From Micrasema longulum (lineage: Eukaryota > Arthropoda > Insecta > Trichoptera > Brachycentridae): 64,000 bases of DNA. The stretch is taken from NCBI GenBank assembly GCA_022494885.1, contig JAGVSM010003405.1, positions 1 through 64,000 of the forward strand, given 5' to 3'. The stretch's first letter is position 1; the number at the start of each line of letters is the position of its first letter. Below the pieces are notes generated by a model, which saw only the letters and a list, made by a program, of their open reading frames with translations, searched no databases and was not told the DNA's origin. This document shows, piece after piece, positions 2,900 to 60,475 of the stretch. Made by a program: the position numbers and the translations under genes.

Positions 2900-3662
2900 A
2901 TTTGTTTTATTTATTTATTTGACACTTTATATACATATACAATAAATATACATATAAGGGCGGGCATATTGCCTTAAGGCAATTTCTTCCTACCTACCCA
3001 AACCGTTCAGTTTGAGAAAATTATAAATACATGGACATATTAAATCTTACAATTTTATACAAAAATTAAAAACAAATATTAACAAAGTAAAAAAAATATA
3101 AATATAAAAAAATAATCACTATACTATGAAGAGAAGAGAAGGGATGGGAAGGAAAGAAAAAGGATAAAGGAACAATTTAAATATTTAGATAGTGACATTT
3201 CAATCTCGACTTAAATGTAAATAAAGAAGGGGCGTCTCTAACATTAGTGGGTAGATTATTCCACAATCGAGCGGCTACTACTGTGAAAGAGGAGGCAAGA
3301 AAATTAGAGCGATGACAGGGCATTAAAAGGGTTCTCTCGTTACTAGAACGAAGAGATAGCCCGTGTTGTGAAAGAGGTTGGATGAGCTCTCTCAGATAAA
3401 CAGGCAAAGTGGGATTATTTAAAATATTGTGAAGAAAAGATAGAATGTGAATGTTTCTTCTATACCTGATACTGAGCCAGTGTAGTTGCGTGCGATACTC
3501 GGTTATGTGGTCAAATTTGCGAAGATTAAAGATATAACGAATACAAATATTCTGCAATCGTTCTAACTTATCAAGCAATTCAGAGTTAGCATCTGGATAA
3601 CATACATCCGCGTAATGACAACAGACGAACAGATTATAATTGTTGGTAGCTTGAGAGCTAGT
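2900..3662 (-). mobile_element. LINE-B remnant, RT C-terminus plus 3' UTR (copy 1)
   Basis: Minus-strand frame beginning near 3660 and ending at 3177. It reads SELLDKLERLQNICIRYIF, then RKFDHITEYRTQLHWLSIR, and closes with ARLWNNLPTNVRDAPS and FKSRLKCHYLNI. These are the RT thumb and C-terminal blocks ('RLQN..IRYIF', 'LHWL.I..RR', 'W..LP') of Jockey/CR1-like LINEs. The frame is open for about 160 codons, so this is one of the younger copies, but it is heavily 5'-truncated. The 3' UTR runs down to ~2905 and ends in an (AAAT)n tail. Near 2965-2985 it contains a short perfect hairpin, TTGCC-TTAA-GGCAA, also present in the copy at 24.5 kb. Confidence 0.82.
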
Positions 3663-3785
3663 ATAAATACATTACACTAAAAATGATAACTAACTGTACT
3701 TATAAAAAGTATATGTATGTGTTTTTGACTTTATGACTGATTTCAAGTTAAAAACCTGTAAAAAGAAATCAACTGGAGATAAGTT

Positions 3786-3990
3786 CACCTCATTGTGTGA
3801 TAGTTGACGCGTTCGTCTGCCATCCTTAAAGTCCTGGGTTCGATTCCTCGAAGGATCGACGTAAAATATTTATTTTAAAAGTTGTTAACTGAAGTATTTT
3901 ATTATTCCTGGACTAGAACTTAAAGCGTCAGACTGATGACCTTAAATTCATGTAACAAATAATCGAAATACGCTGTATCTGGTTAACCAA
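3786..3990 (+). repeat. tRNA-derived SINE S1 (copy a)
   Basis: The head resembles a tRNA: a D-arm-like block, then GGGTTCGATTCC at ~3838, an RNA polymerase III B box. The body then reads 'tcctggactagaac' and 'agcgtcagactgatgacctt', which recurs at 12.6, 27.3, 30.5, 36.3, 47.3 and 60.9 kb. The acceptor stem does not pair, so it is not a tRNA gene. Confidence 0.72.
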
Positions 3991-4019
3991 TGGTCCAAAC
4001 CAATCCAAACCGATGGTTG

Positions 4020-4995
4020 ACCAAATTTGGTTTGCAAAGTGGTTAACGAAAGTCTACCAATGGATAAAATGACTCGCCCACAGTCTGTATTGAATGCCGC
4101 AGCGAGACTTATTTTTGGGATCCCTAAGTTCAGTCATATCACTCCATTTCTTCGGGAATTACACTGGCTACGTTTTTCACTGAGGCTGGAATACAAATTC
4201 CGTTGGCTTATGTATAAGTCACTGCTCAACTCTGCTCCGGAACATCAAAGGGAATTTTGCATTCCAGGTAAACTGGCTGACAGACGTCTTACGTTTGGAT
4301 CAGCTACATCTACGTCAAGAGGAAACGTTATTATACCTCTACGCAAATAGCGCACTAAATTCGTTGAACGCGCATTTGCGGTCGCAGGCCCATGGGATGC
4401 TGAGAAGCAGAAGCGCGAAACTGTGAGAGTGAAGTGATGTTCGGGAAAAATCTTAAAACCCACGTGTTCTGTTAATCGCTTGAATAAATCCGTAGCATGT
4501 GATAACAAAGTAAATTGTTTTACTTAAATCACAAATTCAAAATGTTAAATTAAATTAATTTATTTATACAGGGTGTTCTTTAAGCCCTGTCAAATCCGAA
4601 ACCACGATGATCAGTATGAGCAAGAAGACATATTGGCACATTAAAATACATTTTTAGAACGAATAAAATTTAAAAAATAAAATATTTAAAAAAAACAAAC
4701 GGTTGCTTACTTCTGCAGGGGAGAAACAAGGAGTGGGGAGGGGGTAGTCTGATATACCGTCAAACGCGTGGCGGCGCCCCCCTTGCTTCTCCCCTGCAGA
4801 AGTACGCAACCATTTGTTTTTTTAAATATTTTCTTTTGAAAAAAAATTGTTCGCTCTAAATATATTTTTTAATATGCCAATATGTCTTCTTGCCCATACT
4901 GATCATCGTGGTTTCGGATGTGACAGGGTTTAAAGAACACCTTTATAGTCACTTACGAGGTAATACATTATGAGAACAACGCTTTATAATAACGC
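4020..4995 (+). mobile_element. LINE-C1 remnant (copy a), split by a foldback element
   Basis: The frame 4027-4350 reads PQSVLNAAARLIFGIPKFSH, then LRELHWLRFSLRLEYKF and SATSTSRGNVIIPLRK. This is the RT C-terminal region typical of L2/CR1-type LINEs ('NAAARLI.G....HI...L..LHWL'). After a stop it continues in another frame to about 4480. Copy b at 10,562-11,085 is 80-90% similar by eye and shows the expected continuation ('AWNALPAEIRNCES', 'FRKKLKTHLF'). The 3' UTR is interrupted at 4563 by the foldback element and resumes at 4948. There the degenerate tail 'cgaggtaatacattatgagaac' matches the 'ttgaggtgattttcacaaaaatggcgct' tail shared by all C-type copies. It is not functional. Confidence 0.72.
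4563..4947. mobile_element. foldback element, ~375 bp with very long inverted arms
   Basis: The ends read CAGGGTGTTCTTTAAGCCC (from 4569) and the complement GGGTTTAAAGAACACC (to 4941). The arms stay complementary for about 165 bp each, through 'accacgatgatcagtatg' and 'gacatattgg' to a GC-rich inner part with 'tctgcaggggagaa' / 'ttctcccctgcaga'. That leaves a spacer of only ~45 bp. TTTATA flanks both sides (4563-4568 and 4942-4947), or TA alone if it is Tc1/mariner-like. It carries no transposase. It sits inside the LINE-C1a 3' UTR. A right-end fragment occurs at 35,945-36,000. Confidence 0.8.
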
Positions 4996-5655
4996 CTGCG
5001 TCGGTCGTTGAGAATCAACGGTTTCCATTTCCATAGCATCAACTATTAGTATCAATAGTTAAGCACCTTACCACATAAAACATTTGGTAAGTATCATTGC
5101 CTTAATGCATTACATATTCGATAATCCACTTCAAGTGTTAATCATTTCATTATAAATGTGTTCCGTGGTTCGAGTAAAGGTCTGGCTTTGTTCTGCAATC
5201 CTTCCTCTCAACACTAAAGAGGTCAGATATTATGTTTACTGCGTGCACCGTGCGCCCAAATTACCCAACCATCAAAGCGTTTGATACTAGTGAATATGGA
5301 TACATGTGTATATAAACATGTTCTAGTATCTTCCTGGTCCGATGTTAGAGCTGTTCTGTAGTTGCGATGGACGCTTTTCTGTTTCTTTGTCGCTTGGAGG
5401 GGTCGGCGCGTCGGAACATCTGTTTTCAGTTTCAGTTCAAATATGATGTTTTTTTCATCACAAACTGTTTTGCTTTTAACTTTAAGTCATGTGGTGTCGT
5501 CAAGTGTTTCCTCTTCTCTGAATGCATCATTGGTTTTCAAGCATTCGCTACTCGCTACTTGACAAACAAAGCTCAATGTAGCGACAGATATTTACAATCT
5601 GAATTTGTTGCAATGGTGAATAAAAAAAAAATTGAGAAGGGAATGCCTTTAAATG
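4996..5655. other. unassigned, somewhat GC-richer stretch
   Basis: A plus-strand frame over 5367-5705 is open, but it runs from unrecognised sequence into the LINE-B2 fragment, so it is not a gene. A small hairpin lies at ~5281-5332 ('gatactag' ... 'ctagtatc'). Sequence near 5596-5655 weakly resembles the outer part of the H repeats ('aatttgttgcaatgg'). Confidence 0.35.
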
Positions 5656-5659
5656 CATA

Positions 5660-6588
5660 TTTATATTTGGCTGATTTATGCAGATGCCTGTTACTCAGAT
5701 GCTAATTCTGAACTTCTTGATAAGTTGGGACGATTCTCCCAAAATATCAAACTAATAAACTTCAATCTGTTTTCAATGCAGCAGCAAGGCTAATTACGGG
5801 AGTAAAAAAAATTTCTCACATCTCACAACATCTTCAGCCCAGAGAGAATAAAATACAAGCTTTGCTGGACAGTATTCAAATCCTTCATGAAATGGCTCCA
5901 AAATACCTATCGGACCTTTGTATTAAGGAAAATACATGTCAAAGAAAATCTACTCTTAGGTCAGAATTTGATTCAGGAAGAGGAAAACTTGTCGAAATCC
6001 GGCGCTCCCCAAACACTAGATTTGGAGATCGTGCTTTTGCCGCCGCTGGCTTCTCTGCCTGGAACCAATTGCCTTCAAACTTACGAATCATCGACAGTCC
6101 CAGTCAGTTCAGATCCCAACTAAAATCCCACTTCTTTAGACTATCATACCCTCAATTTTAAATCTGGAAATATAATATATCACTTTAGTTTGGTTAGAAT
6201 GTAAGTTTAGGTATACAATTGTAAAGTGCCCTTGAGGTGATTTTTTACAAAAATGGCGCCATATAAGTCAGCCAAATATTATTATTATTGATTGCAGAAT
6301 GGTGCATTATATCTTCGCAAATTTGACCACATAACCGAATACCACCCGCAACTACACTGGCTCAGAATCAAGCATAGAAGAATCATTCACATTCTATCAC
6401 TTCTTCACAATATTTCGAATAATCCCGCTTCGCCTGTTTATCTGAGAGAGCTCTTCCAACCTCTATCACAACATGGACAATCTCTTCGCTCCAGTAACGA
6501 TAGAACCCCTTTAATACCCCATCACCGCTCTAATTTTCTTGCCTCCTCCCTCGCAGTAGTAGCTGCTCGATTGTGGAATAAAAAATAA
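5660..6588 (+). mobile_element. LINE-B remnant (copy 2), interrupted by a LINE-C2 insertion
   Basis: The left piece, 5660-5735, reads YADACYSDANSELLDKLG, matching LINE-B copy 1 at the same place (YADVCYPDANSELLDKLE). The right piece starts at 6290 and continues with YLRKFDHITEYHPQLHWLRI, then RRIIHILSLLHNISNNPASP, ending truncated at VVAARLWNKK (6588). Joining the two pieces restores the order seen in copy 1, with the break at the codons after 'DKL(E/G)R'. The four bases GATT occur at both edges (5732-5735 and 6290-6293), consistent with a short target duplication. The copy lacks its last ~35 codons and its 3' UTR. Confidence 0.8.
5736..6289 (+). mobile_element. LINE-C2 remnant (copy a), complete 3' end with (ATT)n tail
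   Basis: This short 5'-truncated copy lies inside LINE-B2. The coding part reads QSVFNAAARLITGVKKISHI, then (frame 5862-6161) LHEMAPKYLSDLCIKENTC, RRSPNTRFGDRAFAAAGFSA, WNQLPSNLRI and FRSQLKSHFFRLSYPQF followed by a stop. The 'A..G.SAWN.LP..LR' block is the usual C-terminus of L2/CR1-like LINE proteins. The 3' UTR has the family tail 'gcccttgaggtgattttttacaaaaatggcgcc' and a terminal (ATT)n microsatellite. It is non-functional because it lacks the endonuclease and RT catalytic core. Confidence 0.82.
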
Positions 6589-8560: not shown

Positions 8561-9338
8561 AACAAGATGACAAAAACGAAGACTACCAAATTGTGATCTA
8601 CTTGACATAAATAATCCGGAACTTAAAGAAGCGGCAAAAATCAAAAGTATTTTAAAATATCTAGCAAAAAATGGCAACTTTTTGTGGGACTAAATATCCG
8701 AACACCTGTGAAACAAAAATGACAAATTTCGTACCAAATTACTCCCGTTGTGACTTGCTCGGATATTTTGTTCGAAGGATCTGAGGACACATTTGTTTTA
8801 TTAGGGAGGAATGTATTATGGAAATGTTTCCGCACGAATTATAAAGAGGACGGTGACGCAATTATCTCCAATGTGTTCGGTAGCACATTAATAGGCCACG
8901 GAAATGGTATGGAAACTTAATGCCCTTAATGATCTTTTGAAAGCTTGCCGACTTTTTACAGAGCTGTTCTTAAAGATTTGTAGCGAGCGACTTATTGACA
9001 GAGAATTTACAAATTGTTATTTGGATAAGGGTTTACAAACGGATAATTATTCAAATAATTACGGTGTCATTTTTAAAATAATAAATTTTAAGAATTTAAA
9101 CTGGCACTTTGTACGTTACGTAACTACGATGTTCAAATTTCAAAAATATTTGTAAGTAAACTGTAAACGGAGCGTATGGTATTTCGGGTAACCAATTTAG
9201 CGAATCTCGGTCATTTGTTACATGAAGTCAAGATGCTCATTATTACGCTTCAGACTTCAGAAACTAGTCCAAGTATCACCGTGGGACTACACGACTATTA
9301 GGACTATGAAAGGTACAATGAAAAATCCTACTTATATT
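8561..9338. other. unassigned sequence
   Basis: Two short frames (8641-8835 minus, 8904-9155 plus) have no recognisable domain and AT-driven composition. No repeat was found. Confidence 0.4.
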
Positions 9339-9391
9339 GAATTAAATGTTATTAAATATTTGTATATACCCAACCACTTACCCTCTTTTCT

Positions 9392-9428
9392 ATGTCTACA
9401 AAACGTACCCGTCTCTTCGCCAGGACAT
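9392..9428 (-). ncRNA. decayed hammerhead ribozyme motif
   Basis: On the minus strand the order is stem I strand ATGTC, core CTGGCGA, the stem II start AGAGACGGGTACG, then (after a deletion that removes the GAAACCGG segment) TA and the second stem I strand GACAT. Stem I can still form 5 pairs. Loss of GAAA and the A6-to-G core change make it inactive. Confidence 0.6.
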
Positions 9429-10198
9429 CAATTTGACCAACATGCAAAACCCACTATACAACTTCACAAACATCAACATATTAAAGAATTGAAGGAATAT
9501 AGATTTTCAAATATGGGCAGAATGGTGAATGTTACACAGTGTGTAAGTGGCCACTTAAACCAGCTATTGACAGGTCATAAGCCCTGTAGATGCCTAGACT
9601 TATATATTACCTTCTTTTAAATGTTCTTCATCTCTGTTGTAATATGTTAACCTAATATTTAGTTATTACAAAAACAATGTAGTGACAATTTGAACAGCAT
9701 ATCATTTGCGGGGAGTCATTGCAGCGGATAAATTCAAAATAAGATAACGGTATGTTATGAATTCTGTGTAAGTTCCTCCATTACCTCTCACATAGAGTAA
9801 TTACGAGGAGATGATAAGCTAAAGTATAACAAATAACGAGTTACCGACTACCATTCCCCATTCCTTATCGGTCACAAGGGCGATAAGCTTAACAAATAAT
9901 AATACTGTCACTTGCGTTTTTGTTTCCACGTCTCTAGAGGTTAAAATCTGCTCAATATTTAAAAATATTTATATTATGTAATTTAAAAAGTGATGAGTAA
10001 AGGATTACCTATATGCACTTATGCACTAAGTTAGTCATTCAAGTATTAGATTGGTTATATAAAGTGTATCCGCTGATAAAATATTATTAATATTTAAAGC
10101 ATTAACTTTGTGGTCAAACATTTTACTAAATGTTATTAAATATTTGTTAGAAGGTGTATAGTGGGTTTTGCATGTTGGTTTGCATGTTGGTTTAATTG

Positions 10199-10242
10199 GT
10201 GTCCTGACGAAGAGACGGGTACGTCTCGAAACCGGTAGGCAC
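10199..10242 (+). ncRNA. hammerhead ribozyme candidate, type I layout
   Basis: Stem I is GTGTC (10199-10203) with GGCAC (10238-10242), five pairs including one G-T wobble. The core CTGACGA is at 10204-10210. Stem II is GAGACG/CGTCTC (10212-10217, 10222-10227) with loop GGTA. The conserved GAAA is at 10228-10231. It is followed by CCGG and the cleavage triplet GTA (10235-10237), which satisfies the NUH rule. One extra A lies between the core and stem II. Stem III is very short, so activity would probably need a dimer, as in known short-stem-III hammerheads. It lies in the right arm of the inverted-repeat element. Confidence 0.7.
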
Positions 10243-10561
10243 AGAAAAGTCGGTAAGTGGTTATATACAAATATTTAATAACATATAGTAAAGTGTATCA
10301 TTCGGGAAATACGTTTTTTAAAATGACATGTTGCTCATAACAAAAACGCTAATATTTAATTGGAATCAAATGGACGAACAAATTATAAAAACTTAAGACT
10401 TATTTTAATATCATTCGCAAATTAGTTCGCCAATCACAAACGTCTGTTTTTTTAATGAATTTAGTTGACATAATAATTTTATTTAAAAAAAAATTATAAC
10501 GAAAAACAGAGATGAATGCTGTCGGAATGCATCTCACACAAATGTGTGGTAAAAATATGTA

Positions 10562-11085
10562 CGATACATGCACAAGGAATTGCACTGGCTACGTTTTCCA
10601 CAGAGGGTGGAATACAAACTCTATTGGCTTATGTATAAGTCAATGCACAACTCTGCTCCAGAATATCTAAGGGAACTCTGCATTCCAGATGAACTAGCTG
10701 ACAGACGTCTTACGCTTAGATCAGCTACATCTACGTCGAAAGAAAAAGTTATTATACCTCTACGCAAGCAGCGCACTAAACTCGGCGAACGTGCATCTGC
10801 GGTCGCAGGCCCTAGGGCATGGAATGCTCTCCCAGCAGAAATCCGAAACTGTGAGAGTGAAGTGATGTTTCGGAAGAAACTTAAAACCCACTTGTTCTCT
10901 AAATCATTTGAATAAATTCTTAGCATGTGGTGGAAAAGAAGTATGAAAAAGTACATTATTTTTCTTAAATTAAAAAGTTAAAATTAAATTTATATATTTA
11001 TATCACTTTGTAAAGCGTCCTTGAGCTATAATATTACGAAAATGGCGCTATATAAGTTATCCATAATAATAATTATTATTATTAT
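10562..11085 (+). mobile_element. LINE-C1 remnant (copy b), RT C-terminus and 3' tail
   Basis: The frame 10568-10915 is open and reads HKELHWLRFPQRVEYKLYWL, then YLRELCIPDELADRRLTLRS and GPRAWNALPAEIRNCESE, ending FRKKLKTHLFSKSFE. This is the same protein end as copy a at 4.0 kb, but without disruption. The 3' UTR finishes with the C-family tail 'agcgtccttgagctataat' plus 'aaaatggcgctatataag' and an (ATT)n microsatellite. It is strongly 5'-truncated, so only about 110 codons of the protein remain. Confidence 0.8.
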
Positions 11086-13372: not shown

Positions 13373-13556
13373 CCAGTTGCAAAAAAAAAAAAAAAATTGA
13401 AATAATTGTTGCATTTTTGTCCAAATGTGTAAAATGTATTTTATTTGACTTTTTCGTTCGAACTCGTTTGTCCGTTTAGACGAAAACGCAACAATTATTA
13501 TTATTATTATTTAACTTTACACTTTATTTTTTCTAACTTTTTTTTATGCAACCGGC
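13373..13556. mobile_element. MITE with AGCCAGTTGCA ends (copy 1)
   Basis: It begins AGCCAGTTGCA (13,371 region) and ends TGCAACCGGCT (to ~13,557). Inside are the inverted blocks 'aataattgttgcatttttgtc' and 'gacgaaaacgcaacaatta'. A second copy lies at 53,048-53,222. It has no coding capacity. Confidence 0.7.
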
Positions 13557-42848: not shown

Positions 42849-43032
42849 TTTATATCACATTATTATTTTATTTTATTTGGGAAACCAACAGTTCTACATA
42901 CATATTTATAGTAAAAAACGGATATAGTGTATAAACTCAGAACTAATAACAGATTTTCACAAAGTATACAAAGTTAGTAAAGAAAATATTAAAAATTTTC
43001 TACTGACATTTCTCGGTGGAGCTGCATTTTAA

Positions 43033-43236
43033 TTATAATAATAAAAATAATTTCAAGTTTTATTCCACTTTTATTTATAATAATTTTATATTTTTTTTTA
43101 CCAGTGACCGGGTTTCGTCGTGACCGACATCACCAGTCTGACGATGTCGGTCACGACGAAACCCGGTCACTGGTAAAAAACTTATAAAATAATTATAAAT
43201 AAAAGTGGAATAAAACTATATAGTATTTTTATTATT
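43033..43236. mobile_element. ~200-bp palindrome (foldback) carrying a hammerhead ribozyme
   Basis: The left arm runs 'ttttattccacttttattta' ... 'ccagtgaccgggtttcgtcg' and 'tgaccgacatc'. The right arm is its complement, 'gatgtcggtca', 'cgacgaaacccggtcactgg' ... 'taaataaaagtggaataaaa'. The GC-rich 31-bp core is perfect in both arms and the AT-rich outer arms have a few mismatches. The loop is only about 11 bases. The hammerhead on the plus strand lies across the loop and right arm. Confidence 0.85.
43132..43174 (+). ncRNA. type I hammerhead ribozyme, all core bases present
   Basis: Stem I is ACCAGT (43,132-43,137) paired with ACTGGT (43,169-43,174), six perfect pairs. The core CTGACGA is at 43,138-43,144. 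After one T comes stem II GTCG/CGAC (43,146-43,149 and 43,154-43,157) with loop GTCA. GAAA is at 43,158-43,161. Minimal stem III is A-CC-C-GG-T, and the cleavage triplet GTC ends at 43,168, so cleavage would be predicted between C43,168 and A43,169. The single T between core and stem II matches the extra A in the 10.2 kb copy. The short stem III suggests it acts as a dimer or co-transcriptionally. Confidence 0.78.
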
Positions 43237-44305
43237 TTAATAAAAATATATTACATATTAAATAAATACATATAAAAATGTTATTTTCATGTAATCGTAA
43301 ATATTTTTCAACAACCAAAGAATTTATTTATATATTTTTAAGAACTGTAAGTTATTGAACATTGGGCGGGATTAGAACAAGGATGCTTGATGAGAGTATA
43401 AGGAGGGGAAGGGAGATGTACATATTTATTTTTATAATGTCTACCAAGTTACATAATTCATTTTTAGTGAAAATTTTAAATCTGACAGAGTGATGTTTGT
43501 GTAATCTGTCTTTAAATTTTGTATTGTACACTGAAAAAGTGCTACAAAAAAAGCATTTTTAACACACGATGCTTTACTTATTGGTATATGAAACAGCTGG
43601 TACTGTCTACAAATCCTGGCTGGCACATGTATTGTTATGAGTTGATTAGTTTGAATTAAATGAATAATTTTACAGTGAATTTTGATTTATTTATGTAAAT
43701 GACAGCTTAGGATACAGATCATGTTTTGAAGTTAGAAATCAATAATAAACAAGAATTGACTTGTTTCTTGATTTAACGTTAAAAATTATAAGTAGGTGTT
43801 TGAAAAGAAAACATAAGTAAAGGTCGAATGACTATGTTCAGAAAATATTAATGAATTTGGGATCAAACGAAATAGTGCACCGAGTGCTTTAACTACAATT
43901 GTCTCGGATTTCCCTGTTATCAGAGAAAGTGCGTTCTTTAAAACATGCTGTTGAAATACTTTTCATTAATGTGAATTAAAAAGTAATGTGTATATGTGTA
44001 TGTATCTTTAACGGGGTAAAAAATATTCACGGGGTTTTTTACAATATAAAACGGTTTAAAAATAGCTTTCGCATATGGGAAATGTTTAAAAAATCGTAGA
44101 ATAGTAGGCTTAAAAATATATGTAACACGATATTATTCTGCTATTAATTTGTAGAAATATGCATTTCTATGGCTATGCCTCAAAAACAATATAAAAATCC
44201 TTGATAAACTAACATGCTCAGAAAGCAAAAATGATCCAAAGCTAAAGGCATTTATTTGTAGTGGTAATAATTACATTTTTTTTAAAAAACGGCGCATTAT
44301 TATAC
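43237..44305. other. unassigned AT-rich sequence
   Basis: The frame 43,441-43,626 (minus) has no domain. Nothing repetitive was seen. Confidence 0.4.
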
Positions 44306-53047: not shown

Positions 53048-53222
53048 GGAATATTGAAATCTAGGTAGCTACAGCCAGTTGCATAAAAATAGGCAAATAA
53101 TTGTTGCGTTTTTGTCAAAATGTGGAAAATGAGTTGTAGTATTTTATTTTTTCGTGCGAACTCATTTGCCCATTTTGACGAAATTGCAACAATTATTTAA
53201 CTTTATTTTATTTATGCAAATG
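53048..53222. mobile_element. MITE with GCCAGTTGCA ends, nested in the H element (copy 2)
   Basis: Begins GCCAGTTGCATAAAAATAGG and ends 'ttatttatgcaa'. The long arms 'aaataattgttgcgtttttgtc' (broken here after 20) and 'gacgaaattgcaacaatta' are inverted. It interrupts H sequence between 'gcatctacag' and 'atgatctgtcattgg', which is continuous in copies d and e. Confidence 0.72.
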
Positions 53223-53405
53223 ATCTGTCATTGGTTGGATTTCAGGGCCACTTTACACACTGTGTAACGTTCACCATTCTGCCTATGTTTTAACATACAC
53301 ATTTTTTCACTTCTTTTATCTCTTGATTTTACTGGAGTTAACGGCTGAAACCTTTATTGATGTGGGTAAAATTGATTCATCTGACTAAATTATAACACAT
53401 TTTGG

Positions 53406-53448
53406 GCATCCTGACGAAGAGACGGGTCACATCGAAATCGGCAGACAT
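53406..53448 (+). ncRNA. decayed hammerhead ribozyme motif
   Basis: Core CTGACGA (53,411-53,417) and GAAA (53,434-53,437) are present, with the AGAGACGGGT stem II start. Stem II pairing is lost, the required U before the cleavage base is C (GGCA), and stem I (GCATC/GACAT) is broken. Probably inactive. Confidence 0.6.
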
Positions 53449-53489
53449 AGAAAAGTCGGTAAATGATTATAAAGAAATATTTAATCTTC

Positions 53490-53580
53490 TTATTCTTGCG
53501 GTGCCTTTTTAGGGCCCCCGACGTTGGCGATCACTACAGCGAAAGCATCTCGGTCCTGCGCTACTCCGAAACCTCCTGAA
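53490..53580 (-). mobile_element. RTE-type LINE C-terminal fragment
   Basis: The minus strand reads GGFGVAQDRDAFAVVIANVG, then GPKKAPQE and a stop, followed by 'taagaag'. The 'AQDR..W...V' ending and the short AAGAAG-like tail are typical of RTE LINE 3' ends. Only about 28 codons remain. Confidence 0.5.
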
Positions 53581-60020: not shown

Positions 60021-60025
60021 TTGCT

Positions 60026-60475
60026 GGAATTCCTCTCATCCATGCGCTTTGTAGCTGCACGATGATTGGTTATCTAGCTTTCATATTTCAACTTTAAAAT
60101 ACCTTAATTTTGTAAACGGGGTCTAGAATTCCAATCGTCTATGCGCTTAGTAGCAGCAAGGCGTGTTGTAATCTTACTCCTTTTACTATTCATATTATTA
60201 TTATTTTGTAATACACTAAATTTATTTGTCAATTTTTAAAATGTGTAAATGGGGGCTAAATTTCTAACTGTCTATGCGCTCTGTAGCTGCAAGACGTCCT
60301 GTAATCTAGCTCCTATCTATTATAATTTTTGATTGATCTTAATTGAAAACGAGGAACTAGAATCCCAACCGTCCATGCGCTCTGTAGCTGCAAGACGTAC
60401 TGGGATATTTATTAATTGTACAGCGCCCTTGAGGTGATTTTCACAAAAATGGCGCTTTATAAATTATCCAACTAT
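60026..60475 (+). mobile_element. LINE-C 3' end with four tandem ~100-bp repeats
   Basis: Four units start near 60,026, 60,124, 60,256 and 60,357. Each has 'ctagaattcc.aa..gtctatgcgc' followed by 'tctgtagctgcaagacg' with variants. Spacing is 98, 132 and 101 bp. They run directly into the C-family tail at 60,420-60,470 ('gcgcccttgaggtgattttc', 'acaaaaatggcgctttataa'), then a (TA)n run. The repeats are probably the 3' UTR of a third LINE-C subfamily. Confidence 0.65.

Follow-up and report, generated by a model that had tools for sequence, protein, structure and literature searches.

The palindrome at positions 43026-43247 of the analysed window (the window being the whole stretch of 64,000 nucleotides) probably marks a non-autonomous retroelement of Penelope-like type, inserted as two head-to-head cDNAs and with the palindrome formed at their joining. 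A type I hammerhead pattern stands at the start of one arm, and related insertions occur elsewhere in the genome.

The re-reading of positions 43132-43174 (plus strand) matched the letters and coordinates of the preliminary description, and all of the elements of a type I hammerhead (CUGANGA, GAAA, NUH and stems I and II) are present there in the right order. The pattern, with a one-base insertion and a minimal helix III, is confirmed by sequence and by the descriptor match. The 5' strand of stem I, ACCAGT (43132-43137), which doubles as the element's 5' end, is followed by the core CTGACGA (43138-43144), an extra T (43145) and stem II (GTCG at 43146-43149, CGAC at 43154-43157, loop GTCA). Then come GAAA (43158-43161), the minimal helix III, the triplet GTC (43166-43168) and the 3' strand of stem I, ACTGGT (43169-43174); by the hammerhead layout, the predicted cut lies after 43168. 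Helix III, which had not been emphasised earlier, has only one A-U and one C-G pair with a loop of 3 nt. The ACC-C-GGU sequence of the motif is nearly self-complementary, and the co-fold minimum of two RNAs is another structure; hammerheads with a short helix III and a palindromic loop are reported to need a dimer (PMC6466107).

The unpaired T between the core and stem II was called unusual in the preliminary description. The extra base is indeed present, but it is not a disqualifying obstacle, given the precedent of the CChMVd plus-strand hammerhead, which likewise has an extra base between A9 and G10.1 (A10), and in which a U substitution raised trans-cleavage 3-4-fold (PMC3705267). The two differ in that the extra base is an A in a viroid in the case of CChMVd and a T in a genomic repeat in the window.

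The descriptor used for the hammerhead was composed after the motif had been seen and accepts its extra base, so that the following chance figures flatter the motif. Its only two matches in the window lie at 10204 and 43138, and 150 Markov windows gave two; with one core mismatch permitted, the same two sites compare with four in 30 Markov windows. The 200,000 palindromes built from shuffled 3' arms (both strands) gave no match, and the loose core occurred 2,858 times among them. Chance does not explain the pattern well, and a chance motif inside the palindrome was rejected on the descriptor counts, the palindrome shuffles and the genomic copies. The Rfam scan of the whole window found no family at gathering score, hammerheads included. 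With a cut-off of 48.5 bits, Hammerhead_3 reached 21.2 on the hairpin and 12 on 43125-43185; Hammerhead_1 gave no row at the E limits used. The missing match counts against a canonical hammerhead, to whatever extent the Rfam models recognise forms with an extra base and a short helix III.

The search of the 584,481,819-base assembly, in which the window is C3239:1-64000, gave 1,698 candidates, of which 40 places were scored (80 matches, each place on both strands). The 39 other places were taken with 200-base flanks and aligned with the window copy. The suggestion of a small mobile element was borne out, as the hammerhead belongs to a repeated element with further copies in the genome. Head-to-head pairs were present at all 40 scored places, although the scoring favoured likeness to the window palindrome, and single-arm copies could therefore be missed. 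Such an arrangement is known from Penelope, whose inverted head-to-head pLTRs form junction palindromes, including a nearly perfect one of 38 bp (PMC3846280), and every scored copy likewise has a palindromic junction. Among the 40 copies, one arm normally starts with (A)CCAGTCTGACGATG, and the ACCAGT start is exact in 33 (L013, L019, L029, L033, L039, L044 and L046 differ). The second arm is the same repeat, inverted and shortened at about 22 different points; the script distinguished 26 junction classes, which became about 22 once the mutated copies L015, L025, L036 and L047 were merged by eye. The commonest classes occur 8, 6, 4 and 4 times, and several junctions, e.g., those of L032, L035, L041 and L049, contain filler of nearby sequence.

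A tail of about 40 nt is found on one arm only, namely on the shortened arm in 31 copies and on the intact arm in nine, and tails on either arm were found with the same junction class. Some copies have partial tails; in this alignment, the tails of L013 and L033 are incomplete. Penelope also has an optional tail on one pLTR, and its target duplications are either absent or about 8-10 bp long (PMC3846280). Here, the flanks beyond the element ends looked unrelated among the copies. Of the 40 copies, 21 have an exact target duplication of 10 bp or more, compared with 1.6% of 774 mispaired flanks, and 25 have one of 8 bp or more, compared with 5.6% of the mispaired flanks. The target sites are AT-rich by eye, so that short or absent duplication in an AT-rich site is a further trait shared with Penelope. 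Taken together, the varied junctions, the one-sided tail on either arm and the target duplications indicate that most of the palindromes were probably made anew at insertion. The palindrome had been taken for the element itself; since the junction point and the tail side vary between copies, it is rather a product of insertion.

The window insertion, whose ends were set by comparison with the 39 other copies, has a length of 246 (42996-43241). It consists of the one-sided tail (42996-43031, sense strand minus), which is common to the copies whose flanks are otherwise unique, the shortened inverted pseudo-LTR (43032-43131, minus strand), the head-to-head junction (43131-43132) and the intact pseudo-LTR without tail (43132-43241, plus strand), which starts with the hammerhead. 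The copy alignment places the 5' end of the shortened arm within the hammerhead core, and the junction comparison assigns the junction to the class in which ...GACATC is joined to A. The candidate target duplication AAAATAT (plus strand, 42983-42989, second copy at 43243-43249) is 7 bp long and weak for this copy; an 11-bp direct repeat was discarded after the true element ends were established. The palindrome itself measures 222 nt, with AT-rich outer arms of 73 nt (nine mismatches) enclosing GC-rich arms of 38 nt (two mismatches).

The state of the hammerhead was compared across the 40 copies. According to the preliminary description, copies that do not conserve stem I pairing would speak against the hammerhead; stem I has six pairs in 30 copies and at least five in 37, so that this objection does not hold. 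The core is intact in 32 copies, GAAA and the four pairs of stem II in 34 each and NUH in 37, and all of the hammerhead features occur together in 20. As the copies are recent relatives decaying from one source, the conservation of stem I shows a shared source and not selection, and the selection comparison of the GC core with the AT arms gave a Fisher p of 0.33. The second hammerhead family of the window (10204-10237) is a better sign of constraint than the copies of the palindrome family.

Folding predictions separate RNAs with one arm from those with both. The 222-nt palindrome RNA has a predicted energy of -122.4 kcal/mol (z -22), and the best structure with the hammerhead forced has -63.8. 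When the RNA includes the 5' arm, the pair probability of stems I and II is 0.0 in the window copy; for all 40 copies, the both-arm RNA formed the hammerhead in none and gave stem I a probability below 0.01 in each. In RNA that begins at 43125, the two stems have pair probabilities of about 0.6-0.9; with 43132 as the first base, stem I has 0.67-1.0 and stem II 0.92-0.93. The minimum-energy fold of the 43-nt RNA keeps both stems, with core bases paired (-13.2 vs. -7.3 kcal/mol), and 61 of 200 shuffles reach a fold as good as that of this RNA. Across the family, 25 of 40 copies form both stems with a mean probability of 0.5 or more in RNA from the element 5' end. The palindrome is thus predicted to prevent hammerhead folding in its own transcript, and the earlier claim that the palindrome RNA self-cleaves between C43,168 and A43,169 does not agree with these models; we infer that the hammerhead would cut in single-arm RNA. 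Even a ribozyme motif that is correct at the DNA level can fail to fold within its own locus, and genome surveys that count ribozymes from motifs should allow for this.

The proposed course of insertion is as follows. The element RNA would start at ACCAGT, the first strand of the minimal type I hammerhead, and would continue via an AT-rich pseudo-LTR of about 110 nt into the tail of about 40 nt. A Penelope-like reverse transcriptase/endonuclease presumably acts on this RNA in trans. At insertion, two cDNAs would be made in opposite directions and meet head to head, one attaining the 5' end of the RNA and the other halting within the hammerhead; the meeting of two inverted copies produces the palindrome. 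The favoured manner of joining is a staggered cut primed on both strands, after which the cDNAs would join by template switching or through 1-2 shared bases. Such bilateral priming would explain the one-sided tail and the target duplications, and for the Penelope element of the anole, both target strands are reported to be cut and extended (PMC11167929). A single fold-back relic was also considered and was abandoned once the genomic copies appeared. More tentatively, the hammerhead-bearing 5' end may serve as a joining device, in which case each insertion would rebuild a palindrome that silences the ribozyme, while RNA from ACCAGT would keep the hammerhead.

It is also conceivable, though rather unlikely, that the element is Penelope-like and that its palindrome arose by self-priming, in which the antisense strand loops back at its 3' end and primes its own extension. 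Self-priming on an antisense template was proposed for Penelope palindromes by Arkhipova and colleagues (PMC3846280). On the sense strand, the mismatches at the window junction (43133/43141 and 43132/43142) are C.A and A.C; they become G.U and U.G only on the antisense strand, whose junction RNA folds without the mismatch gap (-69.0 vs. -67.4 for the sense strand), as antisense self-priming would explain. The two commonest junctions permit four consecutive pairs; however, the positional test was not significant, with 1,814 of 20,000 shuffles as good, and copying back the whole first arm should put the tail on both arms, whereas it is observed on one only. The likeness of the arms is uninformative in separating bilateral priming from self-priming, as it is 0.943 within a copy and 0.943 between copies (5,494 of 10,000 permutations).

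The remaining readings depart from a Penelope-like origin. One is a palindromic MITE that is inherited as such and mobilised by a DNA transposase, its likeness to a hammerhead being incidental. This would suit a compact palindrome with many copies in a window that holds 14 separate inverted-repeat spans; it is improbable because the 40 copies show roughly 22 junctions, carry the tail on either arm and have duplications of varying length, and because the second family has the same hammerhead layout. Another reading, in line with the preliminary description, takes the palindrome RNA for a self-cleaving satellite or retrozyme unit: the motif is complete, and animal retrozymes carry type I hammerheads in highly self-paired RNAs of 170-400 nt (PMC7229834). 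Nevertheless, no tandem array is reported at the palindrome locus, which speaks against a satellite and, as there is no hammerhead array there, led to the rejection of a tandem retrozyme; with the hammerhead pairs at zero probability in the palindrome and stem I suppressed in every copy, this origin is very improbable. The least probable reading is that of a functional hairpin RNA, miRNA-like or a siRNA precursor: the z-score of the 222-nt fold and matches of miRNA models, e.g., MIR841 at 70 bits, are in its favour, but all miRNA models scored under their gathering scores, long hairpins attract such models, and the loop varies among the copies. Accordingly, a microRNA and the likeness to mir-981 were dismissed on scores below the gathering cut-off. 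Matches to viral contigs (one and two stretches) were judged by eye to be due to chance and further searches gave 0; there were 0 matches in prokaryote contigs and 0 in phages.

The preferred reading, that of a Penelope-like insertion, calls for a partner that supplies the enzymes. Of 781 candidates from the GIY-YIG search of the genome, 150 were scored, yielding 43 matches. Penelope-like genes exist in this genome, as shown by the open 642-aa frame at L071:4327-6252 with RVT_1 (7.2e-13) and GIY-YIG (2.7e-5). Several GIY-YIG matches lie in opposite-strand pairs (e.g., C5023, C403, C2237 and C3215), which is expected from head-to-head insertion. The descriptor hammerhead occurs at two of 20 GIY-YIG loci (L065 and L068), and 18 are without it. 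At L079, second-family hammerheads at 6458 and 3667 (minus strand) flank GIY-YIG at 3898-4056, and a 76% relative of the palindrome-family repeat (5405-5491, 100-nt match) lies 1.3 kb from GIY-YIG sequence, which is the best such link. A third hammerhead layout (CTGATGA with an extra T and a 6-bp stem I) lies at L080:4176-4211, downstream of GIY-YIG sequence by about 0.8 kb. With blastn, eight of the 11 larger loci (L071-L081) had no match to the palindrome-family repeat or the second-family hammerhead, and no autonomous copy of the palindrome family was found in these searches. As the GIY-YIG loci gave no clear repeat match, the palindrome family is tied to a Penelope ORF by anatomy and not by sequence. 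Among 30 window ORFs submitted to Pfam, none had a GIY-YIG match, and the only match related to reverse transcriptase was a sub-threshold zf-RVT; the absence of an RT and GIY-YIG ORF is expected of a non-autonomous copy.

The second family of the window (10118-10296) has a complete hammerhead layout inside AT-rich inverted ends of 30 nt (93%). Its stems at 10204-10237 (GTGTC/GGCAC and GAGACG/CGTCTC) are unlike those at 43138, but the layout is the same, with an extra A at the same place; its loop III, ACCGGT, is self-complementary. Rfam listed nothing hammerhead-like on 10180-10270. Copies at 53411 (within 53340-53540) and 9424 (minus strand, span 9333-9484) are broken as hammerheads, and no inverted ends were found in 9300-9520 or 53380-53520. 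The relative at 9333-9484 opposes 10118-10296 head to head, with about 0.6 kb between them. Other repeats in the window include a LINE-like ORF at 3177-3671 (minus strand), 50% identical to a protein of the butterfly Maniola hyperantus and 51% to one of Euphydryas editha, with a best match of 60%, from which a lepidopteran host was judged probable; end fragments at 5724-6161 and 10553-10915 resemble it by eye. The arms of the foldback elements at 13388-13512 and 53085-53208 share AACAATTATT-like sequence and perhaps represent one MITE family, and four spaced 46-nt units, with starts 99-133 nt apart and 63-85% alike to the reference copy, lie at 60024-60402.

How Penelope-like elements copy into DNA is unsettled, and the 2013 Adineta vaga paper did not decide on self-priming or on which strand would be the template (PMC3846280). 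The palindrome family bears on this question: many of its insertions are short, complete and flanked by target duplications, with a defined 5' end and junctions that differ, so that the competing models give countable predictions, and the junction differences from copy to copy preserve traces of the insertion process that are rarely available. If the 5' end is indeed a joining device, the copies would form a natural catalogue of independent junctions, separating bilateral priming from antisense self-priming. Pseudo-LTR pairs, junction palindromes, one-sided tails and hammerheads have each already been published for Penelope-like elements. We found no account of hammerheads at the junctions of palindromic insertions in the literature covered, most subscription papers lying outside it.

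Among known systems, Pen2a_Av and Pen3a_Av of Adineta vaga (PMC3846280) share with the window family the head-to-head pLTRs, the junction palindrome, the one-sided tail and the short duplications. They differ in carrying, in the cases described, an ORF or captured genes, whereas the window family is about 250 bp long with no ORF. Hammerheads have 0 mentions in that paper and are present in the window family, which also varies in its junctions over many copies of one small family, a feature not described in the available part of the Adineta vaga account. The hammerheads of Penelope-like elements (Cervera and De la Pena 2014; Lunse and others 2016), compared here via PMC6155905, PMC6466107 and PMC11167929, resemble the window motif in being minimal, of type I and with almost no helix III, and they are usually reported to be without helix III (PMC6155905). 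Animal non-LTR retrozymes likewise have a type I hammerhead and are small and non-autonomous, but they are arranged as tandem units, whereas the window element is a single head-to-head pair (PMC7229834). Poseidon of Anolis (PAc) has a hammerhead as well, which lies near the pLTR-ORF junction, and the start codon is at stem II (PMC11167929). An ATG occurs at 43144-43146 in the window as well, with the predicted cut 25 nt further on and a frame that ends after 10 codons; cleavage in PAc required protein (PMC11167929), and the window family is without an ORF.
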